The translations under genes and the position numbers were made by a program. From Ideonella sp. A 288 (lineage in GTDB: Bacteria > Pseudomonadota > Gammaproteobacteria > Burkholderiales > Burkholderiaceae_C): 64,000 bases of DNA. Every line of letters begins with the position of its first letter. Within the stretch, counting starts at the first letter, position 1. The stretch covers positions 74,085 through 138,084 of the forward strand of contig NZ_MWLO01000145.1 of assembly GCF_002198735.1 (NCBI RefSeq), given 5' to 3'. Below the pieces are notes generated by a model that made no database searches, was not told the DNA's origin, and saw nothing but the letters and a program-made list of their open reading frames with translations. This document shows, one piece after another, positions 9,776 to 58,521 of this stretch.

Positions 9776-9826
9776 GGGCGGCAGTTTACGGGGGGCCGCG
9801 CAGGCGCCGGCCACCCGGCCCCGGGC

Positions 9827-28329: not shown

Positions 28330-29043
28330 TCAGGGCGCGCCCTTGAGCAAGGCCTGCAGTTGGGCCAGCGCGGCGCCGTCGACCGCGCCTTTGGCACCGG
28401 GCGGCTTGACGGCGTCGCCGTACAGGTAGGCATGGGTGCCGATCACACGCTTGCCGTTGGGCCGTTCCGTGACTTCGAACCTGGAGGCGCTCCCCTTGCC
28501 CGGCTTGGTGAAGCCTGTGCTCACGTCCACGTCGGGCTCGTCGCTGACGGCGCGCACCGGCAGGCCGCTGGCGCTGTCGACCCAGACCTTGATGCGCGCC
28601 TCGCCGCGGCCCAGGTCGACGCTGAAGGACCACACCTGCGTGGCGCGACCGGCCAGGCGCTCGCCGCCCTTCAGCGTGCACCTGGCCTCGGCCTCGAACG
28701 CGGCCAGGTCGGTGGCCAGGTCGCGCTCGGCGGGCGAGTTCAGCGCCACGCGTCGAAAGGTCGGCGAGAAGGCATTGCTGTGCTGCACCGAGCCGATGAC
28801 GATGCTGTGCACCAGCGTCGGCGCCAGGCCCGCCTTCAGCGCGGCGGCGTCCAGCGGCAGGTCGATCGCGGCGTGCACGCGCGGCTGCGCCAGCCCGGCG
28901 CGCACGGCCTTGGCCAAGCCCGCACAGGACGTGTCGGCCGCGTGGCCGTGGCCCGTTGCTGCGGCGAGCGCGACGGCCACCAGCAGGTGACTCAGCCGCC
29001 GCGGATCGGCGACGCGACAGGGGCGGGAAGAGATCGAGGCCAT
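28330..29043 (-). CDS. Exported protein, LolA-like pattern
   Basis: The 237-residue protein has a Sec signal peptide (n-region RPCRVADPRRLSH, hydrophobic core LLVAVALAAAT, cleavage after GHGHA). The mature part is mostly beta in pattern. The segment ARIKVWVDSASGLPVRA resembles the strand-turn of LolA/LolB-like lipoprotein-carrier folds, but the similarity is weak. Two cysteines (TSCAGL and ARCTLK) could form a disulfide. AGGAG precedes the ATG at 29043. It is followed by paralogue 1 after 80 bases, and element D lies 49 bases upstream. Confidence 0.65.
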   Translation of the reverse strand: MASISSRPCRVADPRRLSHLLVAVALAAATGHGHAADTSCAGLAKAVRAGLAQPRVHAAIDLPLDAAALKAGLAPTLVHSIVIGSVQHSNAFSPTFRRVALNSPAERDLATDLAAFEAEARCTLKGGERLAGRATQVWSFSVDLGRGEARIKVWVDSASGLPVRAVSDEPDVDVSTGFTKPGKGSASRFEVTERPNGKRVIGTHAYLYGDAVKPPGAKGAVDGAALAQLQALLKGAP

Positions 29044-29091: not shown

Positions 29092-29118
29092 CACGCAGTC
29101 CCGGCGCCCGATCCGCCA
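29092..29118 (-). promoter_or_regulatory. Element D: TGGCGGAT-N13-TGCGTG upstream of the exported protein
   Basis: Plus strand CACGCA at 29092-29097, 13 bases, ATCCGCCA at 29111-29118: an exact copy of the shared element. The -10-like block is 49 bases before the ATG at 29043. Confidence 0.6.
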
Positions 29119-40108: not shown

Positions 40109-42397
40109 TCAGGCGTCCTCGGGCAACTGGTACCGCGTGCTGGGCCCCCGGCCCTCCTGCACCAGCAGGCCCCGCGCGGCCAGCTGACCCAGCAGCTTAG
40201 AGGCGGTGGCCAGGCCCACGCCGCACAGCGGCGCGCACAGGCTCTTGCTCAGCGCGCCGTCGGTCAGCAGGTGGGTCAGCAGCGCGGCGCGGGCCGGCGC
40301 CGCCAGCAGGTCGCCGGCCTGCTGGCGCCACCGCTCGGCCAGCCGTTGCTGCCGGCTCTGCGCGTGCGCGAAGGTCTGCTGCAACTGGCCGAACTCGGCG
40401 TTGAAGCGGTCGCCCAGGCCATGGCGCTCGATCAGCGCCACCGCAGCCTCGCGCTCCTTCACCGACACCGCCAGGTAGGCCCGGGCGATGGCCAGGTGGG
40501 CGGCCACCTGCTCCTCGGGCGGCAGCGGCAGCGCCAGCGCCGCGCGCTGCCGTTGCACGGCCAGCAGTTCCGGGAAGTGGGCGGCGAATTCACCGGGCAG
40601 CAGGCGATCCAGGTTGTCATCGTCGCGCGGGCCCAGGATGTCGCGCTTCAGGCGCCGGGCGGCCTCGGCGGGCGCCGCGTCGCCCTGGGCCGGCCACGCC
40701 GCCAGAGCGGCCGCGGTGTGGGCATCGCCCTGAAGCTCGTCGTCGGCACGGTCCAGCGCCTGGAAGCGCTTGTAGTAGGCCTCGGCCAGGTTGTAGTGGG
40801 CGCGCCAGACGAGCACGCCAAGCTGGGCCCGGCCGGCGAGCTGCAGCGTCTGCTCGTAGTGCGCGATGGCGGCATCCCAGCGGCTTTGCCAGAAGTAGGC
40901 GGCGCCCAGGTTGAGGTGCGTGGCGGCCACGGTCTCGGGCTCGACGGCGAAGTGCTCGGCCATTTCCAGCACGTGCTTCGAGCATTCGATGGCCCTGGCG
41001 AAGTCCTTGGCCTCGCCGTGGATGAGCGCCAGGTTGCCATGGGTCTTCAGGAGGCCCTGCTGGTCGCCCAACCGCTGGTAGAGATGGAGGGCGCGGTACT
41101 TGTGCTCCAACGCCCGGCTGAGCTGGCCGCTGCGGCGCCAGTATTCGCCCCAGGTCTGCGCCAGCAGCGCCTGGGCCTCCAGGGCCCGCGGGCTGTGGTC
41201 GTGCAGGGCCTGCGCACGCTCGAGCAGAGGACCGGCACGCGGGTCGTTGTGCAGCAGGTACCACCAGGCCAGGCGAACTAACGTGTTCGAGCATTCGTCG
41301 AGCAGCGCTCCGTCGGCCGGCGCGGCGGTGTCGGGCACGCCGGCCTCGCGCAGGTGGTCGGCGCTGTCCTGGAAGCAGGCGAACGCGCGGTCGGGGTCGC
41401 GCACCTCGTGATGGCGGCCCAACGCGCCAAAGGCGCGTCCCAGCAACAGCGCATCGCCGGCCGTGTGGGCCAGGCGCAGCGCACGCTCGCAGGCCTGGCA
41501 CTCGGCCGGGGCGTCGCCGCGCACGCGCCACAGCGCCGCCTCGGCCAGCGCCAGTTGCACCTGCTGTGCAGGATCGGCCGGCAGGGCGGCAGCCTCGTGG
41601 AGCAGGATGTCGGTGTCCGGGTGGCGTGCCAGCGGCACGGCGAAGCGCTGCAGGCACACGATGAAGCCGGCCGCGTCTGCGGCGTGCAAGGCATGCCACA
41701 GCGCCGCCACGCCGTCCTGCGCCGACATCGCACGCGCGGCCTGCCGGCGGTGCCAGGCCACCCGGGCGTCCGCACCGCCGTGGCCCAGCAGCGCGTGCAC
41801 CTCGTCCTGCAGCGCGCGCTGCCGCTTCAGCAGCCCCGGCCCGTGCAGCGGCCGCGCCAGGGCCTGGGCCAGCAGGCGCCGGCCGCGGTCCACGCTGCGG
41901 TAGAAGGTGCTCGGCGCCACGTCCCACAGGCCGCACAGCCGATCGGCCGGCGCGTCGGTGGGCTGGGCGCGGTAGTGGGCGGGCAGGGACGGCACCTCCA
42001 GCAGGCCCTGGTGGCTGGCCAGTGCCAACAGGGCCCGCCAGTCGGGCGTGGGTTGCAGCCAAAGGGCCTCGTCGATGCCGCCGAGACCGACCTGCCCGTC
42101 CGGGCGCAGCTCGGCCAGCAGCGCACGCAGCAGCAGTTGCCACGCCAGCGGCGCGTCGGCATCGGGCGGCACGGCGTCGCCGCCCACGCGCCACAAGGGC
42201 GGCAGCAGGCGGTGCGCGCAACGGCGCACCAGGCGCGGCCGTTGTTGCAGCAGCGCTGCCAGCGCGCCGTTGCGATGGGCGGCCAGGAACGCCGTCAACA
42301 GTGCCTCGGGCACCGCCATCCTCAGGTGGAGGGATGCCGGTTCAACGGCTGCTGCCAACAAGTTAGGGGGGCGGCGCGAGGCGGGTTCTTGCATCAT
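40109..42397 (-). CDS. TPR-repeat protein with C-terminal winged helix, probable regulator
   Basis: The 762-residue protein has a helical N-terminal half with the short motif LWDVAPSTFYRSVDRGRRLL (residues about 155-175), which looks like a DNA- or partner-binding helix pair. TPR-like repeats fill about residues 260-560 (for example THLNLGAAYFWQSRWDAAIAHYEQ in part: LNLGAAYFWQS). A winged helix-turn-helix closes it: LLTHLLTDGALSKSLCAPL...LLGQLAARGLLVQEGRGPSTRYQL. No signal peptide is seen. It is divergent from the clostripain-like peptidase, 176 bases away, and may control it. Confidence 0.72.
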   Translation of the reverse strand: MMQEPASRRPPNLLAAAVEPASLHLRMAVPEALLTAFLAAHRNGALAALLQQRPRLVRRCAHRLLPPLWRVGGDAVPPDADAPLAWQLLLRALLAELRPDGQVGLGGIDEALWLQPTPDWRALLALASHQGLLEVPSLPAHYRAQPTDAPADRLCGLWDVAPSTFYRSVDRGRRLLAQALARPLHGPGLLKRQRALQDEVHALLGHGGADARVAWHRRQAARAMSAQDGVAALWHALHAADAAGFIVCLQRFAVPLARHPDTDILLHEAAALPADPAQQVQLALAEAALWRVRGDAPAECQACERALRLAHTAGDALLLGRAFGALGRHHEVRDPDRAFACFQDSADHLREAGVPDTAAPADGALLDECSNTLVRLAWWYLLHNDPRAGPLLERAQALHDHSPRALEAQALLAQTWGEYWRRSGQLSRALEHKYRALHLYQRLGDQQGLLKTHGNLALIHGEAKDFARAIECSKHVLEMAEHFAVEPETVAATHLNLGAAYFWQSRWDAAIAHYEQTLQLAGRAQLGVLVWRAHYNLAEAYYKRFQALDRADDELQGDAHTAAALAAWPAQGDAAPAEAARRLKRDILGPRDDDNLDRLLPGEFAAHFPELLAVQRQRAALALPLPPEEQVAAHLAIARAYLAVSVKEREAAVALIERHGLGDRFNAEFGQLQQTFAHAQSRQQRLAERWRQQAGDLLAAPARAALLTHLLTDGALSKSLCAPLCGVGLATASKLLGQLAARGLLVQEGRGPSTRYQLPEDA

Positions 42398-42573
42398 CCA
42401 ACGATCGTCCAGCGTGGGAGACGATGCCCGGCGAAAACCTGCGTGTCAATGCAAGCCGTCGGCAACGTAGTGTGTCCTGGCGCCGACATGGCGCGGCCTG
42501 CAAGCCGACCGGGCGGACGGCGGGCGGGCAGCCGACCGGCCTCCACCACCGCCCGCTACCGGAGCACCACATC

Positions 42574-44067
42574 ATGCCCTTGGCCCGACTGACCTTTGCA
42601 CGACCCGGCACGAAACCCGCCCCGCGAGGCATCACGCTGGTGGTGTACGCGCCCTACGGCAGCGATGCCGACCTGAGCGGCTACCCCGACAGCGCCATCA
42701 GACCGCTCGACAGGCACCCGCTGCTGCGCCACCTGGCCGCCGTAGCGGCCTGCGGGGTGCACGTGTGCGCGCTGGTCGACCTGATCGACGACAGCACCTG
42801 GCTGGTGGAGTTCGAAGCCCACGCGGCGCGACCCACGATCACCTCGCGCTGGAAGCAGCAGATGGACGCGGCGGAACCGCTGCGCGGACTGATCCGTCAC
42901 GCCTGCGAGAAGCACCCGGGCACGGCGCTGGTGCTGGGCCTGGAAGGGCACGGCGCGGGCTACCTGCCCGAGATCGACCGGCGCGTGCTCACCGCCGCGC
43001 AGCTCACCGACAACGGCAGCTTCGAATGGCACCTGGGCAGCGAAGGCGGAGCACCCGTGCTGCCGACCGGATCACCGCTGCTGCCGACAGGCTCGCCCTT
43101 GCTGCCGACAGGCTCGCCGCTGCTGCCCACCAGCCACCTGCCCATGTCCACCTGGGCACTGGGCCAGGCCATCGCCTCCGGAATGAAGGGGCAGTCGAAC
43201 CGGCTGGGGGTGATCTACTTCAACAGCTGCTTCAACCTGTCGGTCGAGGTGTTGCACACCGTCTCGCCGCTGGCCGAGTTCGCCGCCGGCTACGCCAACT
43301 ACAACTTCTTCACCGCCGGCGAGGCCTACGCGCGGGCCTTCGCCGAGCTCAAGGCACATCGCCACAGCGCGACCACGCGGCAGCTGGCCACCTGGCTGGT
43401 CGAGGCCAACGGCCGCATCCTGCAGGAGAAGTCGCACCACCCCACCGTGGGCGGCGTGGTGGCGCTGGACCGCATGGCGCCGATCGCCCGTGGCGTCGAT
43501 GCGCTGGCCAAGGCAATGATCGATGCGCTCACCGCCGGCGGCCCCGACCAGCACCGCGAGGTGGCCGAGAAGATCCGCAGCGCCATCCGCCGCGCGCAGC
43601 AGTACGACACCCACACGCCCGTCCGGCTGGAGGCGCCGGACGAGCTCACCGACCTGGGCAGCCTGGCGCACGAGCTGACCGGCTTCGACGTCAACCCGAC
43701 GGCCGTGCAGGCGGCGGCGCGGCAGTTGCGCGAACTGCTGGACGGCATCAAGGTCTACGGCGAGGCTGGCGTGCCGTGGATCGCGCCCGGCGTGCACTGG
43801 GACTTCTCGCGCCGAGAGCTGTCGATGAACATCCTGTGCCCCGACCCCAATCTCACCGGCCTGTGGGACTGGCGCTCGCCGTTCTACCTGCAGCCCGACG
43901 CCGATCGCCTGAAGCCTGCGGTGCAGCCGCACGTGATCGACTTCCTGAAGCAGACGGCGTGGGTGCAGTTCATCATCGAGTACCACCGCCATCGGCCCTT
44001 CAAGGGCCTGCGGCCGGCGCTGATCCCGGCCTGCGTGCGCTTCAACCGCGCGCACGCCATGCCCTGA
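42574..44067 (+). CDS. Clostripain-like (C11-type) cysteine peptidase
   Basis: The 497-residue protein has the clan CD layout: an early strand GITLVVYAPYGSDADL, the catalytic His126 in LVLGLEGHGAGY, and the catalytic Cys219 in VIYFNSCFNLSVEV, followed by a strand like the YADY region of clostripains (GYANYNFFTAGE). Three LPTGSPL repeats lie between His and Cys. There is no signal peptide, so it is cytoplasmic or exported by another route. The assignment to the C11 family is by motif and order only. Confidence 0.7.
   Translation: MPLARLTFARPGTKPAPRGITLVVYAPYGSDADLSGYPDSAIRPLDRHPLLRHLAAVAACGVHVCALVDLIDDSTWLVEFEAHAARPTITSRWKQQMDAAEPLRGLIRHACEKHPGTALVLGLEGHGAGYLPEIDRRVLTAAQLTDNGSFEWHLGSEGGAPVLPTGSPLLPTGSPLLPTGSPLLPTSHLPMSTWALGQAIASGMKGQSNRLGVIYFNSCFNLSVEVLHTVSPLAEFAAGYANYNFFTAGEAYARAFAELKAHRHSATTRQLATWLVEANGRILQEKSHHPTVGGVVALDRMAPIARGVDALAKAMIDALTAGGPDQHREVAEKIRSAIRRAQQYDTHTPVRLEAPDELTDLGSLAHELTGFDVNPTAVQAAARQLRELLDGIKVYGEAGVPWIAPGVHWDFSRRELSMNILCPDPNLTGLWDWRSPFYLQPDADRLKPAVQPHVIDFLKQTAWVQFIIEYHRHRPFKGLRPALIPACVRFNRAHAMP
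43060..43143 (+). repeat. 21-base tandem repeat inside the peptidase gene
   Basis: Three units of 21 bases (43060-43080, 43081-43101, 43102-43122) encode LPTGSPL each, and a decayed fourth (43123-43143) encodes LPTSHLP. The unit keeps the reading frame, so gain or loss only changes linker length. Confidence 0.9.
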
Positions 44068-44310: not shown

Positions 44311-46062
44311 ATGCGCTGGCTGCTGACCCCGACGACACGACCCTTCATCGCGATGGCCGCGCTGGCCTCGCTGCTGCTGAACCTGGCGCTGCTGGTGCCG
44401 GCGCTGTACATGCTGCAGGTCTTCGACCGGGTGTTCAGCAGCCGCAGCCTCGAGACGCTGGTCATGCTGAGCCTGTTCGCGCTGCTGGCCCTGGGCCTGG
44501 CCTTTGCGATGGACCGGGCCCGCGGCCGGCTGCTGGCCCGCGCCAGCCAGGCGGTGGACGACGCGCTGGCCGGCCCGGCGCTGGCCACCGCGCTGGACGA
44601 CGCCGCCCACGGTCGCACGGCGCCTGCGCGGCTGTCCGGCATGTCCGACGTTGCCCGGCTGCGTCAGTTCCTGGCCGGGCCGGCGGTGCAGGCCCTGTTC
44701 GATGCGCCCTGGCTGCCGGTGCACCTGCTGGTGATCCATGCGCTGCACCCGGTGCTGGGCTGGGCCGCCGCCGGCAGCGCGATGCTGCTGTTCGCGCTGG
44801 GTTGGGCGTCCGACCGCCTGCTGCAGCAGCGCAGCGCGCAGGCCGGCCTCGACGCCGAACGCGCCAGCCGCCAGATCGACCGGCTGCTGCGCCACGCCGA
44901 AGCGCTGCAGGCCATGGCCATGCAGGCCCAGGCGCTGCTTGGCTGGCAGCAACTGCACCAGCAGGCGCAGGCCAGCCAGGCGCATCTCGGCGGCCTGGCC
45001 GGCACGCTGGCGGCGCTGGGCCGCGCGCTGCGACAGGCGGTGCAGGTGCTGATGCTGGGCCTGGGCGCCTGGCTGGTGGTGGCCGGCCACGCCTCGCCCG
45101 GCATCATGGTGGCCACCACGGTGCTGCTGGGCCGCGCGCTGCAACCGGTGGAGCACCTCATCGCCGGCTGGCGTGCCCTGCTGGACGTGCGCCGCGCCTG
45201 GCGCCGCCTGGGCGAGCAGCCGGTGGCGCCATCGACGCTGGCCGCGCCCCGGTTGCCCACGCCGCGCGGCGCGCTGCAGTTCGAGCGCGTGGGTCTGCTG
45301 GCCGAAGGTGCGCCGGCGCCGATCCTGAAGGCCTTGTCGCTGCAGGTGGCGCCAGGCGAGTGCCTGGGCCTGATCGGACCCAGCGGTGCCGGCAAGACCA
45401 CGCTGCTGCGCGCAGCGCTGGGCCTGCGGCGGCCGCAGACCGGCGCGGTGCGACTGGACGGACTGGAGGTCTCCCAGTGGCCAGACGCCTGCTGGGCCGA
45501 CAGCGTGGGCTACCTGCCGCAGGACGTGGCGCTGTTCGGCGGCACGGTGGCGCAGAACATCGCCCGCCTGGCGCCGGTGGACACCGACGAGGCCCTGGCC
45601 GCGGTGGTGGCCGCCGCGCGGCTGGCCGGCGTGCACGAGCTGATCATGCGTTTGCCGCAGGGCTACGACACGGTGCTGGACGACGAGGGCCACGCCCTGT
45701 CGGGCGGCCAGCGCCAGCGCATCGGCCTGGCCCGCGCGCTGCACGGCCAACCGCGGCTGGTGGTGCTGGACGAACCCAGTGCCCACCTCGACGCCGACGG
45801 CGAGCAGGCCCTGGCCACCGCCCTGGCCGCGCTGAAACGGGCCGGCACCACGGTGCTGCTGGTGTCGCACCGACCTGCCCTGATGCGCCACACCGACACG
45901 CTGGCGGTGCTGCGCGATGGCGCCCTGGTGCAGCACGGCCCCCGCGACGCGGTGCTGGCGCAGCTGGCCGGCCACAACGTGACGCCGCTGCGGCCCGGCG
46001 CGACGGCCTCCGCGACACCGGACTGGCCGGCCGGCACGGCGGACGCCGCCGCCCGCGCCTGA
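44311..46062 (+). CDS. Type I secretion ABC transporter (PrtD/HlyB-like ATPase-permease)
   Basis: The 583-residue protein has an N-terminal membrane domain (about six helices, starting LLNLALLVPALYMLQVFDRVF, the PrtD-family opening) and a C-terminal nucleotide-binding domain with Walker A GPSGAGKTTLL, signature LSGGQRQR and Walker B LVVLDEPSAHLD. There is no N-terminal C39-like domain. It exports unfolded proteins with a C-terminal signal together with an HlyD adaptor and a TolC channel; the TolC gene is not in the window. GGAG lies 9 bases before the ATG. Confidence 0.93.
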   Translation: MRWLLTPTTRPFIAMAALASLLLNLALLVPALYMLQVFDRVFSSRSLETLVMLSLFALLALGLAFAMDRARGRLLARASQAVDDALAGPALATALDDAAHGRTAPARLSGMSDVARLRQFLAGPAVQALFDAPWLPVHLLVIHALHPVLGWAAAGSAMLLFALGWASDRLLQQRSAQAGLDAERASRQIDRLLRHAEALQAMAMQAQALLGWQQLHQQAQASQAHLGGLAGTLAALGRALRQAVQVLMLGLGAWLVVAGHASPGIMVATTVLLGRALQPVEHLIAGWRALLDVRRAWRRLGEQPVAPSTLAAPRLPTPRGALQFERVGLLAEGAPAPILKALSLQVAPGECLGLIGPSGAGKTTLLRAALGLRRPQTGAVRLDGLEVSQWPDACWADSVGYLPQDVALFGGTVAQNIARLAPVDTDEALAAVVAAARLAGVHELIMRLPQGYDTVLDDEGHALSGGQRQRIGLARALHGQPRLVVLDEPSAHLDADGEQALATALAALKRAGTTVLLVSHRPALMRHTDTLAVLRDGALVQHGPRDAVLAQLAGHNVTPLRPGATASATPDWPAGTADAAARA

Positions 46063-46101
46063 GGCATCCCGATCCCACCCCACCCGACCCGGAGCCTCCC
46101 C

Positions 46102-47457
46102 ATGACGAACGCAACTTCTTCGATGTCGACCGCGACGCTGGCCGACCTGATGCGGCGGCCAGGGCCTGCCGCGGCGCCGGCCACGGGGCTGCGCCGCCTG
46201 CAGGCGCAGGTGCTGGTGCCATTGGCCCTGGCCGGTGCGCTGGTGGGTGCCTGGGCGGCCTGGGCACCGCTGTCCGGTGCCGTGGTGGCCTCTGGCCAGG
46301 TGCAGGCCACGCTGGGCCGCAAACCGGTGCAGCACCAGGAAGGCGGCATCGTGCGCGAGCTGCTGGTGCGGCCCGGGCAAGCGGTGCAGCGCGGCCAGGC
46401 GCTGCTGGTGGTGGGCGACGTGCGCACCGACGCCACGCTGGACCTGCAGCGCAAGGCCGCCGACGCCGAGCGCCTGCGCGTGGCCCGCAGCCGTGCCGAA
46501 CTGGCACTGGCCAGCAGCTTCGCCCCGCCGCCCGGGCTGGCCGATGGCGGCGACGCCCTGCGGCGCGAGCAGCCGCTGTTCGAGGCCCGGCGCCAGACCC
46601 TGGTGCACCAGTTGGCCGCCTTGCAGTCGCAGCAGCGCGATGCACACGCGCGCATCACCGCGCTGGAGGCCCAGCTGGCCAGCACCGACCGGGCCACCCA
46701 GCTGGCCGGCGACGAGCTGGGCGTGCAGCGCGAGCTGGTCGACGCCGGGTTCGTGCAACCCGCGCGGCTGCTGGGCATGCAGCGCGCGGTGGCCGATGCG
46801 CAGGGCCGCACCGAATCCATCCGCAGCCAGTTGGCCGAGGCCCGCATGCAGGTCGGCGCGCTGGAGCACTCGATGGCGCAGGCCCGCGGCGCCTACCAGC
46901 AACGCGCCGCCGACGAACTGAGGGACGCCACCGCCCGCCTGCGCGAACTGGACGACCGCTTGCGACCGGCACAGGACCAGGCCGACCGCCAGACCGTGCG
47001 CGCGCCGGTGGACGGCACGGTGATGGCGCTGCGCGTCGGTGCGGTCGGCACCGCGGTCGGGCCGCGCGAGACGCTGCTGGAGATCGCGCCCACCGACGAG
47101 CGGCTGGTGGTGGAACTGCGCATCGACCCGCACGACATCGACCACGTGCGCCTGGGCAGCGACGCCGAAGTGCGGCTGACGGCCTTCGACAGCCGCCGCA
47201 CACGCCTGCTGGCCGCCAACGTGAGCGCACTGTCGCCCGACACCAGTGTGGAGCCGGGTGCCGATCCGCGCGGCCGCGCACCCGGCTACGTCGCGCAGGT
47301 GACGGTGCGGCCCGAGGCGCTGGCCAGCCAGCCCGGCCTGCGGCTGCAGCCGGGCATGCCGGCCGAGGTGTTCATCACCACCGCGCCGCGCAGCCTGCTG
47401 GATTACCTGCTCGAGCCGCTGGGCCTGTTCGCCCGGCGCGCACTGCGCGAACCCTGA
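46102..47457 (+). CDS. HlyD-family periplasmic adaptor of type I secretion
   Basis: The 451-residue protein has an N-terminal membrane anchor (VLVPLALAGALVGAWAAW), a lipoyl-like half (VVASGQVQATLGRKPVQHQEGGI), a long coiled-coil hairpin (about residues 115-300), and the second lipoyl half and beta-barrel (VRAPVDGTVMAL, RVGAVGTAVG). The end MPAEVFITTAPRSLLDYLLEPL is typical of PrtE/HlyD adaptors. It bridges the ABC transporter and the outer-membrane channel. It starts 39 bases after the transporter gene. Confidence 0.92.
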   Translation: MTNATSSMSTATLADLMRRPGPAAAPATGLRRLQAQVLVPLALAGALVGAWAAWAPLSGAVVASGQVQATLGRKPVQHQEGGIVRELLVRPGQAVQRGQALLVVGDVRTDATLDLQRKAADAERLRVARSRAELALASSFAPPPGLADGGDALRREQPLFEARRQTLVHQLAALQSQQRDAHARITALEAQLASTDRATQLAGDELGVQRELVDAGFVQPARLLGMQRAVADAQGRTESIRSQLAEARMQVGALEHSMAQARGAYQQRAADELRDATARLRELDDRLRPAQDQADRQTVRAPVDGTVMALRVGAVGTAVGPRETLLEIAPTDERLVVELRIDPHDIDHVRLGSDAEVRLTAFDSRRTRLLAANVSALSPDTSVEPGADPRGRAPGYVAQVTVRPEALASQPGLRLQPGMPAEVFITTAPRSLLDYLLEPLGLFARRALREP

Positions 47458-47668
47458 GCCGGAGCACTGCGATGCACCGGTCGACCCATGCCACGCGCCG
47501 TTCCGCCGCCCCTGCGGCCGGATCCAGGCGCGTCCCCCGACACCCCCTGACACGGGGTGACCGGGTTGCCCGGACGGGCCAGGACGCGACCTCGTCCTGC
47601 CCGATCCCGGGCCACCCGGAATCCATGTCCTTTCATCGACACATCCACATGAATCAGGAGAGACCATC

Positions 47669-49705
47669 ATGACCATCACCATCACCGGCGACGGCTTCAA
47701 CAACGTCCTCGCCGCCGCGCCGGGCGACAACTACATCCTCCAGGGCCTGGGCGGCGACGACTCGCTGACCGGCAGCACCGGCAACGACACCCTCGAAGGA
47801 GGCGCCGGCAACGACACCCTCACCGGCGGCACCGGCGCCGACAGCATGACCGGCGGCAACGACAACGACCTCTACCGCGTCGACAACGTCGGCGACGCGG
47901 TCGTCGAAGGCATATTCGGCGGCACGGACACGGTCGAATCGACCATCTCCTTCACGCTGGGCAACTTCGTCGAGAACCTGACGCTCACCGGCATCGGGTC
48001 GACCAACGGCACCGGCAACGCGCTGAACAACGTCATCCTCGGCAACCTGGGCAACAACATCCTCGACGGCGGCACCGGCGCCGACACCTTGACCGGCGGC
48101 CTGGGCGACGACACCTACATCGTCGACAACACCGGCGACGTGGTGACGGAAAACCCGCTGGAAGGCAATGACACGGTGAAGTCCAGCATCACGTGGACGC
48201 TGGGCGCTAACCTCGAAGACCTGGTACTGACTGGCAATGCGGCGATCGACGGCACTGGCAACACGGCGGCGAACAAGATCACCGGCAACGGCGCGGCCAA
48301 TGTGCTGGCCGGTGGCGCCGGTGCCGACACCATGGACGGCGGCCTCGGCAACGACACCTACTACGCCGACAACCCCGGCGACGTGGTCAGCGAGCAGTTC
48401 TCGCTGGGCGGCACCGACCTGGTGTACTCCCGCGCGTCGAGCCTCACGCTCGGTGGGTGGATCGAGAACCTGGAGCTGCAGAACAGCCAGGTCGTCTTCG
48501 ACCCGGTGACCGGCAACTTCACGCTGCTGCCGGCAGGCGTCAACGGCACCGGCAACGGGCTGGGCAACCTCATCACCGGCAACCTCGTCGGCAACACCTT
48601 GTCGGGCATGGGCGGTGACGACACGCTGCTCGGCCTGATCGGTGCCGACACGCTGCTCGGCGGCGACGGCCACGACTTGCTGGACGGCGGCCTGGGCAAC
48701 GACAGCATGGACGGTGGCATCGGCAACGACGTGTTCGTGGTCGATTCGGCCAGCGACGTGGTGACCGAGGCCGCGGGCGGCGGCATCGACCGGGTGGACT
48801 CGTCGGTCGGCTGGACGCTGGGCGCCAGCGTGGAGAACCTGACGCTGACCGGCGCCGCCGCGATCGACGGCACCGGCAATGCGCTGGCCAACGTCATCAC
48901 CGGCAATGGCGCTGCCAACACCATCGACGGTGGCGGTGCGGGCGACATCCTGCAGGGCCTGGGCGGCAACGACACCTACCTCGTCGACAACGCCGCCGAC
49001 CAGGTGTTCGAGTTCGCTGGCGGCGGGCTGGACAAGGTCAAGTCCAGCGTCACCTACACGCTGACCGACAGCGACGTCGAGGACCTCGAGCTGACGACCG
49101 CGCTGCCGCTCGGCGGCACCGGCAACGTCAGCGACAACACCATCACCGGCAACGCGGCCGGCAACACGCTGCTCGGCCTGGCCGGCGCCGACGTGCTGCT
49201 GGGGATGGGGGGCAACGACCTGCTGCAGGGCGGCTTCGGCGCTGACACGCTGGCCGGCGGGCTGGGCGGCGACACGCTGCGTGCAGTGGACGCGGCGGCC
49301 GGCGTGAACGACTTCGCCCAGGACGTCTTCGTCTTCAACACCCCGTTGAACGCGGTGACCAACGTCGACGAGATCCAGATGGCCATCTTCGTGGCCGGCG
49401 CCGAAGGCGCGGGCGGCGATGACGACATCGCGCTGAACATCGGCATCTTCGGCGGCATGGTGGCGGTGGGCGGCTTCGCGGTCGGCGAACTGAGTCCGGC
49501 CTTCTACTTCGAAGGCGCCGGGTTCACCGGCAACGCCGCCAATGCGCCGGTGGGCATCTACAACAACACCACCACCGGCCAGCTGTTCTACAACGCGACC
49601 TTTGCGGCGGCAGGCGACAGCACGCTGTTCGCGGTGGTCAACGCCGGTGGCGTGCCGGGCGGATCGGCGATGTTGTCATCGGAGGAGTTCCAGCTGGTGG
49701 CCTGA
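47669..49705 (+). CDS. RTX-type calcium-binding secreted protein, probable cargo of the adjacent system
   Basis: The 678-residue protein is built from about five modules of the haemolysin-type kind. Each has GGxGxD nonapeptides (GGAGNDTLTGG, GGLGDDTYIVDN), then D-x-V-x-E and a beta segment ending SVENLTLTG with a GTGN loop. Calcium binds the nonapeptides after export. No signal peptide is present, and the C-terminus EEFQLVA fits a type I secretion signal of the hydrophobic-tail kind. No enzymatic domain is visible, so it may be structural or an S-layer/adhesin-like protein. AGGAG precedes the ATG by 10 bases. Confidence 0.88.
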   Translation: MTITITGDGFNNVLAAAPGDNYILQGLGGDDSLTGSTGNDTLEGGAGNDTLTGGTGADSMTGGNDNDLYRVDNVGDAVVEGIFGGTDTVESTISFTLGNFVENLTLTGIGSTNGTGNALNNVILGNLGNNILDGGTGADTLTGGLGDDTYIVDNTGDVVTENPLEGNDTVKSSITWTLGANLEDLVLTGNAAIDGTGNTAANKITGNGAANVLAGGAGADTMDGGLGNDTYYADNPGDVVSEQFSLGGTDLVYSRASSLTLGGWIENLELQNSQVVFDPVTGNFTLLPAGVNGTGNGLGNLITGNLVGNTLSGMGGDDTLLGLIGADTLLGGDGHDLLDGGLGNDSMDGGIGNDVFVVDSASDVVTEAAGGGIDRVDSSVGWTLGASVENLTLTGAAAIDGTGNALANVITGNGAANTIDGGGAGDILQGLGGNDTYLVDNAADQVFEFAGGGLDKVKSSVTYTLTDSDVEDLELTTALPLGGTGNVSDNTITGNAAGNTLLGLAGADVLLGMGGNDLLQGGFGADTLAGGLGGDTLRAVDAAAGVNDFAQDVFVFNTPLNAVTNVDEIQMAIFVAGAEGAGGDDDIALNIGIFGGMVAVGGFAVGELSPAFYFEGAGFTGNAANAPVGIYNNTTTGQLFYNATFAAAGDSTLFAVVNAGGVPGGSAMLSSEEFQLVA

Positions 49706-49974: not shown

Positions 49975-50421
49975 CTAGACCGTGCGCTTCAACTCGGCCC
50001 GCAGCGCCGCGCTGAGGCCCGGCGCATCGGGCAGGTTCTGGAACAGCACGGGTTGCGCCTTGTGAAAGTGGTAGTTCCACTGTCCCAGCGTCCAGATGTA
50101 GGGCGAGCCGTGACCCCGGATGGGGCTGATGATGCCGTCGACCACCTTGCCCGGGTACTGCATGCCGGCTTGCGACGAGAAGATCCTGTACGCCAGCACC
50201 GCATCGAACTGGCCATTGAGTTCCAGGCGCACGTTGGCCACGCTGGCGTGCCGGGGGCGGCTCGGCTTGCCGAACGAATCGAGCATGGTGCGCAGGTACT
50301 TGATCAACTCGACATCGGTTGGTCGATTGGCACAGGAGGCCAAGTGGCCGACGTGCGCATCGACATTCCAGATGAACGGCAGGCCTTCCGGCTTGCCGGG
50401 CAACATCAAACGGTGGGCCAT
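49975..50421 (-). CDS. Conserved small protein, paralogue 2 of the WNVDAHVG family
   Basis: The 148-residue protein shares with the protein at 27812-28249 the blocks MAHRLMLP, GLPF[VI]WNVDAHVG, NRPTDVEL, LNG[EQ]FD and the end LRAEL[QK]R[ST]V. The middle differs, with IWTLGQWNYHFHKAQP here. The NRPTDVELI and LNGQFDAVL pattern again recalls peptidoglycan-binding-like domains. It has no signal peptide. GGAGGA lies 7 bases before the ATG, and element B lies 36 bases upstream. It is the last gene of the sigma/kinase locus. Confidence 0.7.
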   Translation of the reverse strand: MAHRLMLPGKPEGLPFIWNVDAHVGHLASCANRPTDVELIKYLRTMLDSFGKPSRPRHASVANVRLELNGQFDAVLAYRIFSSQAGMQYPGKVVDGIISPIRGHGSPYIWTLGQWNYHFHKAQPVLFQNLPDAPGLSAALRAELKRTV

Positions 50422-50456
50422 GGTCGATTCCTCCAGAGCTGTGACCTGCCCCTGAA

Positions 50457-50483
50457 CACGCAAAAGCCCGCCTGAATCCGCCA
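50457..50483 (-). promoter_or_regulatory. Element B: TGGCGGAT-N13-TGCGTG upstream of paralogue 2
   Basis: Plus strand CACGCA at 50457-50462, 13 bases, ATCCGCCA at 50476-50483. It is an exact copy, placed 36 bases before the ATG like element A. Confidence 0.6.
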
Positions 50484-50586
50484 CCACGGGCTGCGGGAAC
50501 GCTCGTCGGGCCTGACAGAGTGCTGCGATTGCAGGCCAGGCGGGGCCCAGCGCGTGCGATTCGCCAGGCGCCTGGCTCGAGCCGGC

Positions 50587-51375
50587 TCAGGCCGGATCGA
50601 CCGCTGCGACACCGGCCGGCGCGCGCGGGCTGGCGACGGCTTGCGTGGTCTGCATCAGTGCATGGCCCAGGCGCAGCAGGGCGGCCACTTCGTCCAGCGT
50701 GGGCTCGGTCTTGCCGTCGTCGCGCTTGAGGCTCAGGAAATGGTGCTGGGCATGGGCATGGATCTCGCCGTCGCGCAGCGCATGGGCCCGCAGCCAGAGG
50801 GCGTCGACCGCCGGCGTCCACACGGCCGCCCACAGCGGCTCGCTGGCCAGCAGCACCCAGCGTTCGCTGAAGGCGGCGCTGCCCACCTCCTGCGGGGTCC
50901 AGTTCACCCGGTCGTCATCGGGGTGTTCCAGGGAGGGTTCGAAGACCCTGCCGGTGGCCCGGTGCAGCAGATCCTCGATGGCCGCCTCGGCGCGGAACAG
51001 CATGTTGTCCGGCGCCGGCTGGCTCTGACGCTGGCGCCACTTGGCGCGCGAGCGCTGCCAGGACTTGCGCGACACGACGACGAAGCCGCCGGGCGACACG
51101 CCCGGCACGCCACCCTCGAAATCGGTCCAGCGCTGGCCATCGTCTTCATCCTGGTGCGGCCCGCCACGCCACTCCCGTTCGCCCAGCTTGCAGGTGAACT
51201 GATCGTGGCCCGCATACCGCCAGCCTTCGGCAGCGGCCAGGCGCCGGGCTTGGCCGCGCTGCCGCCATTGGACACGCAGGCCGCCCAGCACCCGCCAGGT
51301 GATCCACAGCGTCAGGCCGCCAAAGACCAGGATGAAAACGCCCAGGCCGAGCATCGTCAATTGGGGTGAGGTCAT
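50587..51375 (-). CDS. Membrane protein of unknown function in the sigma/kinase locus
   Basis: The 262-residue protein has one N-terminal membrane segment (LGLGVFILVFGGLTLWITW) and a cytoplasmic or periplasmic domain I do not recognise. The soluble part is rich in Arg/Trp/Glu, with no catalytic motif seen. It lies 111 bases downstream of the kinase gene and has its own copy of the shared element (E) 42 bases before the ATG, with one mismatch. The company suggests a part in the same response. Confidence 0.62.
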   Translation of the reverse strand: MTSPQLTMLGLGVFILVFGGLTLWITWRVLGGLRVQWRQRGQARRLAAAEGWRYAGHDQFTCKLGEREWRGGPHQDEDDGQRWTDFEGGVPGVSPGGFVVVSRKSWQRSRAKWRQRQSQPAPDNMLFRAEAAIEDLLHRATGRVFEPSLEHPDDDRVNWTPQEVGSAAFSERWVLLASEPLWAAVWTPAVDALWLRAHALRDGEIHAHAQHHFLSLKRDDGKTEPTLDEVAALLRLGHALMQTTQAVASPRAPAGVAAVDPA

Positions 51376-51416
51376 CGCGCGGGCTCCGTTGGCTGTGATT
51401 CATCCACGCTGATGCC

Positions 51417-51443
51417 CACGCAGACCCGGCGCGAAACCCGCCA
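51417..51443 (-). promoter_or_regulatory. Element E: shared element with one mismatch, upstream of the membrane protein
   Basis: Plus strand CACGCA at 51417-51422, 13 bases, then ACCCGCCA at 51436-51443 instead of ATCCGCCA. Spacing is the same as in the four exact copies. It lies in the 111-base gap between the kinase and the membrane-protein gene. Confidence 0.5.
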
Positions 51444-51486
51444 CGCACGCGAACCACGCCGACGGGCTTCGGCCCGGGCCCCAGGG

Positions 51487-54300
51487 TCAATGCAGCACCA
51501 GGAAACCGTCGGGCAAGGCTCCGCCGATGGCCTGGCCATACAACGCGTCGGCCTCGGCCCGGCGTGCGGCAGCGGCCAGCACCTGACCGTCTGCGCGCAG
51601 GATCTCGGCTTCCGCGCCCATCATCTCGGCACGAAACGGATGCAGCGCCGGCAGCGGCTGCAGCGCGGGGCCCAGCGCGACCCGGAAGCGCGCGCCGGCC
51701 TCCGCGCGCTGGGCCGCCGGGGTCTGCAGCGCGCCGAGCCAGGCCGCCACCGCCTGGCATTTCAGGCTGCGCGGGTTGGTCGGCCCCAGCGCGGCCGTCA
51801 GCGTGGCGCAGGCCTGGTCGGCGGCCGCCGCGGCCGCGGTGGCATCGGCCGTGCCCCGCGCGGCCACCGCCAGTTGCAGGCGCTTGGCCGCACGCTCCAG
51901 CGGGTTGTTGGCCTTGCCCATCTGCTCGGCGTTGGCCAGGCTGGCCCTCAGGGCCTGCAGGCCCTCGTCGCGCTGGCCTGCACCCAGCAGGGCATCGGCC
52001 AGGTACCAGCGCGCCGCCTCGCGATAGCGCGTGGGTTGCGCGTACTTGGCGTCGAGAAAAGCGCTCACTTCGCGCGCCATCGCCACGGCGTCCTCATGGC
52101 GGCCCCCCTGCGTTAGCAGGCGCACCAGTTGCAGTTCGGCGAGCTTCACGGCCTCGGGCTCCGGCGGCGTGCGGGCCGCGACGTTGGCCACATTGGCCCG
52201 CTGCACATCGACCGCTTCGCCATAGCGCCCCAGCTCGGCCAGCACGCGCGCATACAGCGCCCGCGTGACCGCCGTGCGGTCGTGGTGCGGGCCGATGTGG
52301 CGGTCGACCAGCGGCACGGTCTCGCGCAGGGCCTGCTCGGCCGCGGCGAACTCGCCGCGGTTGAACTGCAACTGCGCCAGCTGGGTGCGGGTGCCAATGC
52401 GGTCGGTCACCGGGTAGTCGCTCACCTGGGGTGCCAGCTGCTCGATGCGCTGCACCAGCGCCTGCGCCTCGGCGAGGCGGCCACCCGCGATGTGGTTGAC
52501 GGCCACGTTGTTGGCCACGGTGAAGTAGTCGGCCGTGGCCTCGCCGCTGAACCGGGCCTGCTCGCGCAGCGCCTCGTCGCCGAGGGCCAGGCTGCGGTCG
52601 AGCTGGCCCTGCTGCGAGGCCATGTAGGCCTGCCAGGCCAGCACGCGGCCGGTCCAGCGCTGCGGCCGCGGGCCCAGGCCGTCGGCCAGCGCGGTCACGC
52701 GGGCCAGCGTGGCCTCGGCCTTGGCAAAGTCGCGCAACTCCATCTGTGCCTGGCCGAGCCAAAAGAGCGTTTCCACGCTGCGCTCGTCGCCCGGCGAGGC
52801 CAGCCGCTCGCGCACGGCCAGGCTGCGCTGCAGGTGGGTGGCCGCCGCGGCCATGGCGCCCATCTCGAGGTAGATGCTGCCCACCACCTGATGCAGTTGC
52901 GCCTGCACGTCGGGCTGGCCGGCAAAGTCGCCGTCGATGCGCCCGGCGGTCAGGTCGAGCAGCTGGCGCGCGCTGAGCTCGCGGCCCTGCGACTGCTGGG
53001 GATCGTTGTAGGACAGCACCTTGGCCAGGAAAGCCTGCACCGCGTTCGAGCGCTGGGCCTCGGCACGGGCGCGGTCGGCCTGCCACCAGGCCACGCCGGC
53101 ACCGACCACCAGCGCCACCGCCACCAGGGCACCCGCCGCGATGGCCAGGCCCTGGCGCTCTAACAAGCGGCCCAGGCGGTAGCCCAGCGTGGCCGGGCGC
53201 GCCAGGATGGGCAGCGCCTGAAGATGGCGCTCGATGTCCTGCGCCAGCGCCTCGGCCGAGGCATAGCGGTCGGCCGGCCGCGGCGCCATGGCCTTGCCCA
53301 CGATGGTGTCGACATCGCCGCGCAGCGCGCGCTGGGTGGCCGGGTCGGTGGCGGCGGCGCTGGGCTTGCCGGTGTCGGCGGCCAGGATGGCCTCCTCCAG
53401 CGCGGCGGGAGTCGCTCGCTTCAGCGCATAGGGCAGGCGGCCGGTGAGCAGCTCATGCATGAGCACGCCCAGCGAATAGACGTCGCTGGCGGTGCCCAGC
53501 GGCGTGCCGGCGATCTGCTCGGGCGAGGCGTACTGCGGCGTCAGCGCGCGGCCACCCAGCTGGGTGAGCTCGGTGTCGGCGGTGACGCCGGTGTCGTCCA
53601 GCAGCTTGGCCACGCCGAAATCGAGCAGCTTGACCTGGCCATGGTGGTCGACCAGCACGTTGCCGGGCTTGAGGTCACGGTGGATCACCAGTTGGGCATG
53701 CGCATGCTGCACTGCCTGCAGCACCTGCCGCATCAGCCGCAGGCGGGCGGGCACGTCGAGCCGATGCTGCTCGGCCCAGCGGGTGATGGGCAGGCCGTCG
53801 ACGTACTCCATCGCCAGCCAGGGCTGCGCGCCGTGGGTGCCGGCGTCGAGCACGCTGGCGATGTGCGGGTGGCTCAGCGCCGACAGGATCTGCCGCTCGC
53901 GCGCAAAGCGCTCGCCGATCACCTGCGCCCGCGCGCCCAGCCAGGGCAGCTTCAGCGCCACCTCGCGGCCATGGGCCCCGTCGCCGCGCCGCGCCAGCCA
54001 CACACAGGCCATGCCGCCGACGCCCAGTTCGCGCAGCAGCACGTAAGGGCCGATGGCCTGGCCGGCCACGGAGTCCGACGAAGGCGCCGCGCCGCCGGCC
54101 GTCAGCGCCGGCAGCACACGCAGGAAATCGCTGCGGTCGAGCGCCTGGCGGTCCTCCAGCAGATGGCGCAGCGCCGGGATCAGTCGCTGCCGATCGGCCG
54201 GCAGCGCCGCCAGCCAGGCTTCGCGGTCGGTGGGCGGCCCGTCCAGTGCCTCGTCCAGCAGTTGGAAGAGGATGGCCCAGTCGGCGGGAGACGGTTGCAT
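51487..54300 (-). CDS. Transmembrane Ser/Thr protein kinase with C-terminal TPR domain
   Basis: The 937-residue protein has an N-terminal helical part (1-85), then a Hanks-type kinase: glycine loop LGVGGMACVWLA, lysine in REVALKLPW, HRDLKPGN near residue 205, DFGVAKLL and SPEQIAG. A membrane helix (about 393-412) separates it from a large TPR-like domain (about 420-930). Kinase-membrane-TPR proteins next to TIGR02999-type ECF sigma factors form a known class in which the kinase phosphorylates and switches on the sigma factor (EcfK/PknS and EcfP/PknT type). It lies 76 bases after the sigma gene, and element C is 31 bases before its ATG. Confidence 0.9.
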   Translation of the reverse strand: MQPSPADWAILFQLLDEALDGPPTDREAWLAALPADRQRLIPALRHLLEDRQALDRSDFLRVLPALTAGGAAPSSDSVAGQAIGPYVLLRELGVGGMACVWLARRGDGAHGREVALKLPWLGARAQVIGERFARERQILSALSHPHIASVLDAGTHGAQPWLAMEYVDGLPITRWAEQHRLDVPARLRLMRQVLQAVQHAHAQLVIHRDLKPGNVLVDHHGQVKLLDFGVAKLLDDTGVTADTELTQLGGRALTPQYASPEQIAGTPLGTASDVYSLGVLMHELLTGRLPYALKRATPAALEEAILAADTGKPSAAATDPATQRALRGDVDTIVGKAMAPRPADRYASAEALAQDIERHLQALPILARPATLGYRLGRLLERQGLAIAAGALVAVALVVGAGVAWWQADRARAEAQRSNAVQAFLAKVLSYNDPQQSQGRELSARQLLDLTAGRIDGDFAGQPDVQAQLHQVVGSIYLEMGAMAAAATHLQRSLAVRERLASPGDERSVETLFWLGQAQMELRDFAKAEATLARVTALADGLGPRPQRWTGRVLAWQAYMASQQGQLDRSLALGDEALREQARFSGEATADYFTVANNVAVNHIAGGRLAEAQALVQRIEQLAPQVSDYPVTDRIGTRTQLAQLQFNRGEFAAAEQALRETVPLVDRHIGPHHDRTAVTRALYARVLAELGRYGEAVDVQRANVANVAARTPPEPEAVKLAELQLVRLLTQGGRHEDAVAMAREVSAFLDAKYAQPTRYREAARWYLADALLGAGQRDEGLQALRASLANAEQMGKANNPLERAAKRLQLAVAARGTADATAAAAAADQACATLTAALGPTNPRSLKCQAVAAWLGALQTPAAQRAEAGARFRVALGPALQPLPALHPFRAEMMGAEAEILRADGQVLAAAARRAEADALYGQAIGGALPDGFLVLH

Positions 54301-54330
54301 GGCGTGCACGGGACCTCGGTCACCCGGGAT

Positions 54331-54357
54331 CACGCATTCCGGCGGCGGCATCCGCCA
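54331..54357 (-). promoter_or_regulatory. Element C: TGGCGGAT-N13-TGCGTG upstream of the Ser/Thr kinase
   Basis: Plus strand CACGCA at 54331-54336, 13 bases, ATCCGCCA at 54350-54357. The copy lies in the gap between the sigma gene and the kinase and is exact. A feedback loop from sigma factor to its kinase would follow. Confidence 0.6.
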
Positions 54358-54376
54358 TGGCACGTGCCCGGGTGCG

Positions 54377-54934
54377 TCATTCGCGCTTCAGCGCCGCGTA
54401 GAGGAAGCTGCGCGCCTTCTCCCAGTCGCGCTCGACGGTGCGCTTGCCCACGCCCAGCGCCTGCGCGATCTCGTCCATCTCCAGGCCGACGAAGTAGCGC
54501 ATCTCCACCACGCGCACCATGCGCTCGTCGATCGCGGCCAGCGCCTCCAGCGCCTCGTGCACCGCCAGGATCTGCTCGTCGCCGGCCGGCGTGGCGTCGG
54601 ACACCGCGGTGTCCAGCGTGACCCGCTGCAGGTCGCCGCCGCGGCGCTCGGCCCGCGATTCGCGCACCAGGTCGACGATGACCGAGCGCATCGCGCGCGC
54701 GGCATAGGCCATGAAATGCCCGCGGTCGTTGACGCTCAGCCGCTCGAGCTGTGCCAGGCGCAGGTAGCTCTCGTGCACCAGCGAGGTGGTGTCCAGCAGC
54801 GTGGGGCCAGGCCCGCGTCGCAGCTTGGCATGGGCCACCTGCCGCAGGTCGGCATAGAGCAGGCGGTAGAGCCGGTCGATGGCGCCGGCATCGCCGCGGC
54901 CTGCCGCCTGGATCCACTCGGTGATGTCGCTCAT
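54377..54934 (-). CDS. ECF-type RNA polymerase sigma factor (TIGR02999/ECF43-like)
   Basis: The 185-residue protein has sigma region 2 (LYRLLYADLRQVAHAKL, then HFMAYAARAMRSVIVDLVR) and region 4 (DERMVRVVEMRYFVGLEMDEIAQALGVGKRTVERDWEKAR, split: VVEMRYFVGLEMDEIA). The pattern LVHESYLRLAQLE and the RDW before the last helix are those of TIGR02999-family sigma factors, which usually have a Ser/Thr kinase and no anti-sigma factor. I chose ATG 54934. No shared element precedes it, so it may be transcribed constitutively and act on the five elements found. Confidence 0.9.
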   Translation of the reverse strand: MSDITEWIQAAGRGDAGAIDRLYRLLYADLRQVAHAKLRRGPGPTLLDTTSLVHESYLRLAQLERLSVNDRGHFMAYAARAMRSVIVDLVRESRAERRGGDLQRVTLDTAVSDATPAGDEQILAVHEALEALAAIDERMVRVVEMRYFVGLEMDEIAQALGVGKRTVERDWEKARSFLYAALKRE

Positions 54935-57099: not shown

Positions 57100-58521
57100 T
57101 CACGCCAGACGCTGCAACTCGTCGATGAAGCGCTGGCGCTGGGTCGTGTCGGTGATGGCCTCGGCCAGCCGCGCCACGAACAGGTCGCGCTGCCCGGTGG
57201 CCGCGGCGGCCTTCTTGACCACGATGCGCGCGATCGGCCCCACCTGCTGGGCCAGCAGGCGCTCGGCACGTTCGCGCAGGGCGTCGTCGACCGCGCCGGC
57301 CGCGGCCGACCGGGTGCCCGCACCACCGCCTGCGGTGGTGAGCGCGGTGGCCTGCGAGGCCTGGCCCAGGAAGGCGCTGCGCGCCACCGGGTTGCTGACC
57401 TGCGCGGCCAGGCGGTTGTACAGCTCGGTGAGGTCGCCGCAGTCGCGCGCGGCGCGCCGCACCATCACGCCGGCCAGCGGCCCGACATGGCGCGCCAGCG
57501 TGTGCTCCACCTGCGACAGCACGGCGGCGTCCCAGTGCGTGGGCACGCCCCCGGCGGAGGCCGCGCTGGAGCGGCCCGCCGCGCCGCCGGCCGAACCCGC
57601 CGTCGGCGCGGCGGCGTCGCCATCGGTGCCCGTGCGCCGGGCGGCCAGGGCCGTCATCGTGGCGTCGGACACGGTGGCCGCGGCGGCCTTGCCGATGGCC
57701 ATGGCCACGGCGGCACGGAAGGCCTCGGCCGATGCGAAGCGCTGCGCCGGGTCCTTGGCCAGGGCCTTGGCGACGATGGCATCGTAGGCGCGTGGCCGGG
57801 CCGCGCCGCCTTCCACCTCCGACGGCACCGGCGCCGGATCGTGCACCACCTTGTACATCAGCGCCTCGGGCGTGCCAGTGAACGGCTGGCGGCCGGTGAG
57901 CAACTGGAACAGCACCACGCCGGCGCCGTAGATGTCGACCCGCTTGTCGATCGGCTTGCCCAGGAACTGCTCGGGCGCCATATAGGTGGGCGTGCCGACC
58001 ATCATGTTGGCCTGGGTCAGGCCACCGGCCTCGATGCGGGCGATGCCGAAGTCGGCGATCTTCAGGCGCCCGGCGCGGGTCATGATCAGGTTGGCGGGCT
58101 TGATGTCGCGGTGCCACACGCCCTGGCCGTGCGCGTGCTCGAGCGCGTCGAGCAGCTGGGTCATCACGCTCAGGATGTCTTCGTCGGTGAAGCGGATCTG
58201 GCTGGCCAGGAAATGCGACAGGTTGCTGCCGGCGACGAACTCCATCGCGATGAAGGCCGTGCGGCCGTCCTCGCCGTAGTCGTACACGCCGACGATGCCC
58301 GGGTGCTGCAGGCGGCCGGCGGCCTGCGCCTCGTTGCGGAAGCGCGCGGCGATGGACTCGGCGAAATCCGATCCGTCGTCGAGCTGCCGGCGGATGGTCT
58401 TGAGCGCCACGACGCGCCGGATGTCCGGGTCGAAGGCCTTGTAGACCACGCCCATGGCGCCCTCGCCGAGGACCTCGGTGATCTGGTACTTGCCGAGCTG
58501 TTCGGGAACGGGGGTGGGCAT
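57100..58521 (-). CDS. Cytoplasmic Ser/Thr protein kinase with duplicated C-terminal repeat
   Basis: The 473-residue protein has a Hanks-type kinase: LGEGAMGVVYKAF, VALKTIRR, HRDIKPANL near residue 137, ADFGIARIE and TPTYMAPEQF. After an Ala/Gly-rich linker there are two related repeats, marked by RHVGPLAGVMVRRAA and QQVGPIARIVVKKAA, each ending in a Leu/Arg-rich helix. No membrane helix is present. It is the third gene of a unit with the DUF3365 and FecR-like genes (40 bases from the former), so it may pass on a heme- or redox-linked signal. Confidence 0.87.
   Translation of the reverse strand: MPTPVPEQLGKYQITEVLGEGAMGVVYKAFDPDIRRVVALKTIRRQLDDGSDFAESIAARFRNEAQAAGRLQHPGIVGVYDYGEDGRTAFIAMEFVAGSNLSHFLASQIRFTDEDILSVMTQLLDALEHAHGQGVWHRDIKPANLIMTRAGRLKIADFGIARIEAGGLTQANMMVGTPTYMAPEQFLGKPIDKRVDIYGAGVVLFQLLTGRQPFTGTPEALMYKVVHDPAPVPSEVEGGAARPRAYDAIVAKALAKDPAQRFASAEAFRAAVAMAIGKAAAATVSDATMTALAARRTGTDGDAAAPTAGSAGGAAGRSSAASAGGVPTHWDAAVLSQVEHTLARHVGPLAGVMVRRAARDCGDLTELYNRLAAQVSNPVARSAFLGQASQATALTTAGGGAGTRSAAAGAVDDALRERAERLLAQQVGPIARIVVKKAAAATGQRDLFVARLAEAITDTTQRQRFIDELQRLA

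Follow-up and report, generated by a model that had tools for sequence, protein, structure and literature searches.

A conserved two-block element as a candidate promoter for a kinase-linked ECF43-like sigma factor in Ideonella sp. A 288

The closest described systems, as presented in the parts of the cited papers available to us, are two ECF43 sigma factors that are activated by membrane kinases. In Xanthomonas citri the gene for EcfK adjoins that of a Hanks-type membrane kinase, PknS (PMC13147305, PMC8999054). PknS makes its sigma factor active by phosphorylating it and consists of an N-terminal segment of about 83 residues, a kinase domain, a transmembrane helix and periplasmic TPR repeats (PMC13147305). 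EcfK carries threonine in place of the acidic residues of region 2.2, and the same replacement of the acidic motif is found in EcfP, the sigma factor activated by the kinase PknT in Vibrio parahaemolyticus (PMC8999054, PMC8103513). In systems of this kind the kinase phosphorylates the second threonine of an STTA or QTTA motif in region 2.2, which has been proposed to restore the negative charge needed for binding RNA polymerase (PMC8999054, PMC13147305). The second threonine is the phosphorylated residue in EcfP (PMC13147305, PMC8999054), and EcfK has a second phosphosite, T106, in its linker (PMC13147305).

We analysed a 64-kb stretch of the Ideonella sp. A 288 genome, referred to here as the window, that encodes a sigma factor and kinase of comparable design. 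The sigma factor gene (54377-54934, minus strand) encodes an ECF43-like protein of 185 amino acids, assigned from alignments and from matches to the Sigma70_ECF / Sig-70_X6 family models PF07638 (E 1e-47, 163 bits) and TIGR02999 (184 bits against a cut-off of 126), the latter of which we take to correspond to ECF43. Its region 2.2 reads DTTS at residues 48-51, so that threonine replaces the acidic motif as in EcfK and EcfP, and one acidic residue, D48, remains. Residue E168 lies within GKRTVERDWE, which we presume to be the -35 recognition helix; this placement draws on general knowledge of sigma region 4.2, because a structural alignment gave only a weak match. The adjoining gene (51487-54300, minus strand) starts at an ATG (54300) located 76 nt past the sigma stop, a GTG at 54309 being also possible, and encodes a Hanks-type membrane Ser/Thr kinase of 937 amino acids. 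It contains an N-terminal segment, a kinase domain at residues 86-353 (Pkinase, E 1.6e-41), a hydrophobic segment and TPR repeats (TPR_12, E 2e-12), a layout that fits the PknS type of receptor kinase, with the transmembrane helix recognized by eye only. The best PDB match over residues 7-360 was 9eed (E 6.1e-48), which is PknS of Xanthomonas according to the available part of PMC13147305. An earlier, sequence-only reading of this DNA had placed the sigma factor in the class controlled by such kinases, and the PF07638 and TIGR02999 matches, the adjoining kinase and the threonine in region 2.2 all agree with that placement. A second Ser/Thr kinase gene (57100-58521, minus strand), with a 39% match to the first, is located near an LpxC-like gene (identified by eye) and a gene for a Tll0287/HAMP protein.

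A two-block element is found five times on the minus strand. The pattern TGGCGGAT-N13-TGCGTG occurs exactly four times in the window and in none of 100 dinucleotide shuffles, and a fifth copy has a single mismatch, A to G, and reads TGGCGGGT. The exact copies precede the kinase gene, in the gap between sigma and kinase (54331-54357), two genes that we name after the motif WNVDAHVG (gene B, 50457-50483; gene A, 28285-28311), and a gene for an exported LolA-like protein (29092-29118), while the mismatched copy (51417-51443) precedes the gene for a predicted membrane protein. All five point toward their gene in one orientation, and the distance from element to start is 30 nt for the kinase (ATG 54300), 35 nt for both WNVDAHVG genes, 41 nt for the membrane protein and 48 nt for the LolA-like protein. 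Where longer starts exist the shorter ones were preferred, since the WNVDAHVG paralogue and the Rubrivivax genes described below begin there, as does the kinase in genome G296 and, by eye, the signal peptide of the LolA-like protein. The search thus recovers the five copies of the sequence-only reading at the same coordinates, each ahead of a minus-strand start at the distance given there. When up to three mismatches were permitted, the window contained 13 matches against 15.7 expected, so only the strict form is special. No RNA families were found in the window.

The element can be read as a putative -35 hexamer TGGCGG and a -10 block CGT separated by 17 nt. With two blocks about 17 nt apart, lying tens of nucleotides before gene starts and with the presumed cognate sigma factor encoded nearby, both its geometry and its position agree with the earlier suggestion of an ECF promoter. 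We consider it very probable, from sequence comparison, that all five copies act as ECF-type promoters and that their reader is the sigma factor at 54377-54934, under the control of the membrane kinase. There is no element upstream of the sigma gene itself, and the model therefore leaves the expression of that gene unexplained.

The genes behind the elements encode mostly proteins of no assigned family. The predicted membrane protein (50587-51375, minus strand; 262 amino acids) has one N-terminal hydrophobic segment, seen by eye, and had neither a Pfam match above the cut-off (Phage_holin_4_2 reached E 0.07) nor an NCBIfam match. WNVDAHVG proteins A (27812-28249, minus strand; 145 amino acids) and B (49975-50421, minus strand; 148 amino acids) are 44% identical to each other and gave no Pfam, NCBIfam or credible PDB match. 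Relatives of these two proteins were found in 2 of 299 family genomes, namely that of Ideonella sp. A 288 itself and G054 (32%). A mobile or viral origin was considered and set aside, as no relative was confirmed in IMG/VR (57 pattern stretches), plasmid or phage collections. The exported LolA-like protein (28330-29043, minus strand; 237 amino acids) had two Pfam matches, both below the cut-off, to DUF6094, a methyltransferase family (E 0.0018), and to MucB_RseB (E 0.026), and no credible PDB sequence match; the name LolA-like, taken from the sequence-only reading, is provisional. Assignment of the WNVDAHVG and LolA-like proteins to a known fold or family was likewise rejected, the Pfam, NCBIfam and PDB comparisons having returned nothing trustworthy. 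Many of the open reading frames behind such elements begin with an apparent signal peptide, as judged by eye, which suggests a role in the envelope.

The plus strand next to WNVDAHVG gene B carries a row of genes (44311-49705) for an ABC transporter, a membrane-fusion protein and a repeat protein rich in glycine and aspartate. By eye the row resembles a type I secretion system, the repeat protein being its RTX-like substrate, and it ends about 270 nt from gene B. Before it lies a gene whose product resembles, by eye, a clostripain/caspase-like peptidase (42424-44067, plus strand), and a large open reading frame (40109-42397) runs in the opposite direction to this gene.

In order to compare related loci, sigma-kinase loci were gathered by a kinase search together with sigma searches, giving 43 including that of the window and later 49. 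A contig scan returned two loci, one of which, L127, comes from a Rubrivivax metagenome-assembled genome (in G414). Here the lolA-like, WNVDAHVG B, WNVDAHVG A, sigma and kinase genes lie side by side, followed by a subtilase gene; no relative of the 262-amino acid membrane protein was found in the cluster. WNVDAHVG B is 82% identical to a protein of this locus, WNVDAHVG A shares 81% identity with the protein encoded at L127:8501-8935, and the LolA-like homologue (L127:7224-7961) matches at 68%. Counted over the 14 fixed positions, the element precedes the lolA-like gene with one mismatch (7147-7173), at a distance nearly identical to that in the window, and the kinase (9676-9702) and subtilase (12647-12673) genes with two mismatches each. 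The gaps before the two WNVDAHVG genes, 39 and 53 nt long, contain no element, which suggests a single operon. In the window the genes of this cluster are split about 21 kb apart and each WNVDAHVG gene has an element of its own; clustering without separate elements in one genome, set against separation with a copy for each gene in the other, strongly supports, at the level of sequence, the view that the element marks one regulon spanning both loci of the window.

The element also recurs beside the three closest relatives found for the sigma factor, in G414/L127 (79%), G432/L156 (76%) and G296/L046 (69%), and beside a further one in G433/L159 (58%); a search of 298 genomes for further relatives of the L159 sigma returned only that protein itself. 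In all four loci TGGCGG-N17-CGT starts 3-33 nt past the sigma stop. Including the window, this form begins no more than 33 nt past the sigma stop at 5 of the 43 loci and at none on the other strand, compared with a mean of 0.14 and a maximum of 3 in 200 shuffles. The order of sigma followed by kinase is kept in L127, L046 and L159, and when the gaps of these five loci, that of the window among them, were aligned in pairs, the -35 block was the best shared ungapped stretch in 8 of 10. In the window, L127/L157, L046 and L159, such an element also stands ahead of the gene that follows the kinase. These genes differ in kind: besides the membrane protein and the subtilase they encode a PEP-CTERM-like protein, which matches floc_PepA below the threshold, and another protein with an apparent signal peptide. 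A comparison of orthologous loci had been proposed along with the original observation, and in it the element returns at matching genes in related genomes. In L156 the kinase gene matches only residues 119-183 and 451-711, so that most of the catalytic domain is missing; in this case (9443-11181) the sigma (76%) and the element are kept.

Sister loci carry different versions of the -35 block. In the 180 nt that follow the sigma stop, TGTCC(G/T)-N17/18-CGT was found on the coding strand at 13 of the 43 loci and at none on the other strand (200 shuffles gave a mean of 0.055 and at most 1). Four loci, of which three belong to these 13, have a site of the TGTCC type upstream of the sigma gene and pointing away from it. 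We then used a strict search for TG[TG]C[CG][GT]-N17-CGT, comprising eight -35 forms, on either strand up to 200 nt downstream and 350 nt upstream. A strict site was located beside the sigma gene at 27 of the 49 loci and was absent at 22, ten of which are of the arginine type described next. The version found corresponds to the residue X in the TVXRDW motif of the sigma factor's last helix: with arginine (23 loci) all 13 sites read TGTCC, with glutamine (8 loci) all seven read TGTCGG, with glutamate (8 loci) five of six read TGGCGG and one, at L182, reads TGTCGG, and with glycine the single site reads TGTCC, although these counts are not independent, since the 49 loci include orthologues, loci from shared genomes and five sister sigmas of the Ideonella genome. 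Nine loci with another residue or none at this place had no strict site, and the glutamate-type loci L047 and L048 had no clear one.

The -35 version goes with the clade of the sigma factor. On a tree comprising 45 of the 49 sigmas, built with the helix letters masked and without L059, L065, L188 and L191, in which the helix motif was not recognized, the -35 class changes three times, whereas 300 label shuffles needed at least seven changes (mean 11.3); the small number of changes indicates that the element tracks the clade. When descent is counted, the putative link between residue and base is underpowered, with one independent pair on supported branches and three in all; the rule has about three evolutionary changes behind it. 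Within 6 kb of the sigma genes, TGTCCG-N17-CGT occurs 31 times near arginine-type sigmas (5 in the reversed control) and TGTCGG seven times near glutamine-type sigmas (0 in the control), and the 13 occurrences of TGGCGG near glutamate-type sigmas hardly exceed the background of 6.

Several other features of these loci were recorded. Seven of the eight glutamine-type sigmas (L158, L162, L062, L063, L169, L170 and L171) are preceded by a TGTCGG-N17-CGT site that points away from the sigma gene, toward divergent genes. Four kinase-linked sigmas (L160, L161, L163 and L164) read DTGA, with glycine at the place of the second, phosphorylated threonine. Finally, TGTCCG-N17-CGT occurs at several places within 6 kb of the sigma gene in L052 and L181, which are candidates for larger regulons.

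Two conserved blocks with a long spacer, repeated as one pattern before all five genes, could also be the operator of another transcription factor. The blocks, however, are neither symmetric nor repeated, their orientation toward the gene is constant in the window, the spacer is 17 nt at 16 of 18 sites in a search that permitted 17 or 18, and the versions at sister loci change with the sigma clade. We regard an operator as improbable for these reasons, and a promoter read by a sigma factor as the better explanation.

The element could instead be the promoter of a different sigma factor, for example a sister encoded in the same genome, and adjoin the present sigma gene by chance. The genome encodes at least six such sigma genes, and ECF sigma factors can read one another's promoters. 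The sequence-only reading had called for a search of the whole genome, and in 6.98 Mb the exact pattern was found four times, always within the window and not scattered beyond it (reversed control, 0). Allowing one mismatch added 12 places, one of which is the fifth window copy. Among the other 11, eight lie inside open reading frames that are coding-like by GC3 and three (L008, L012 and L014) in long open reading frames that the GC3 rule did not flag, a rough rule that also flags three of the five window elements, as these are covered once their genes are extended in frame to the greatest length. One of the 11 (L013) is followed at 51 nt by an open reading frame start, and it also lies inside a coding frame of the opposite strand. 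A regulon extending beyond the window was therefore rejected, the fifth window copy being the only believable site among the 12. This confinement of the exact element to the window argues against a sister sigma, as does its association with the nearest relatives of this particular sigma in other genomes. Furthermore, among the five own-genome sister loci only L061 has a strict site beside its sigma gene, and it reads TGTCCT; L049, L051, L056 and L060 have none. Recognition by another sigma factor thus seems to us about as doubtful as the operator, and the sigma factor at 54377-54934 stays the favored reader.

Looser forms of the pattern carry little information. The relaxed pattern TGGCGGAT-N14-GCGTG has at least one match in 223 of 399 family genomes, and relaxed patterns at the genus level match in 17 of 21, both of which represent background; G296 has seven relaxed matches, two of them at the sigma-kinase locus. 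Several of the matching sequences recur across genomes, one example being coding sequence in the Ideonella genome. Chance, coding constraint or a dispersed repeat might account for such common and recurrent matches, but as an explanation of the strict element it is barely credible, being contradicted by conservation across genomes in intergenic gaps that otherwise share little and by the four exact copies, all before starts, against none in the reversed control.

The DTTS motif of the window sigma, together with activation by phosphothreonine in related systems, leads us to propose a path from signal through kinase and phosphorylated sigma to promoters. The membrane kinase would sense a periplasmic or envelope signal and phosphorylate the sigma factor, the probable site being T50 in region 2.2, a place occupied by acidic residues in most sigma factors, and the phosphorylated sigma might then be able to join RNA polymerase. 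It would turn on the kinase gene, giving positive feedback on the kinase, as well as the membrane protein gene, WNVDAHVG genes A and B and the gene for the exported LolA-like protein. We infer the reading of the element by the sigma, its phosphorylation by the kinase, the signal and the roles of the targets. The kinase-to-sigma regulon originally put forward is nonetheless strengthened by the ECF geometry, the recurrence at the same genes, the sister-locus variants and the Rubrivivax cluster.

A broader and more tentative idea, which we hold to be possible though somewhat less likely than its opposite, is that a single cell maintains parallel, insulated kinase-linked ECF channels, and that each channel uses a private -35 alphabet deducible from the sequence of its sigma factor. 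In the region 4.2 helix, the residue that follows TV (arginine, or glutamine/glutamate) would set the fifth -35 base (C or G, respectively), and a second position, perhaps that after the tryptophan together with glutamate, would set the third (T or G), with each channel feeding back on its kinase or on a neighboring exported protein. The present findings offer one sigma residue as a test point for a change of specificity. If the promoter reading is right, the targets of such systems could be predicted from DNA and the WNVDAHVG family, which has no assigned function, would gain a regulatory context.

The kinase-sigma pair itself is of a known kind. As far as the available parts of the sources go, it shares with EcfK/PknS and EcfP/PknT the features set out above, and differs from EcfK-type sigmas in having DTTS in place of their QTTA consensus. 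The outputs also differ, since EcfK turns on a type VI secretion system and EcfP/PknT controls polymyxin resistance (PMC8999054, PMC8103513), whereas the apparent targets in the window comprise the kinase itself, one exported and one membrane protein, and proteins without a family. A promoter sequence for EcfK was not found in the available parts of PMC13147305 or PMC8999054, nor was one for any ECF43-type sigma in the literature searched; the primary publications on EcfP and on the general ECF code may report one. That general code (Todor et al. 2020, as reported in the part of PMC8103513 available to us) relates residues of regions 2 and 4 to bases of the -10 and -35 elements, and the apparent correlation between sigma residues and -35 class seen here is of the same nature. 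What we regard as new beyond the described systems is the variant -35 block together with its conservation and the genes that it appears to serve, providing a candidate ECF43-type promoter with exact coordinates and a family-wide version of it beside many sigma genes.
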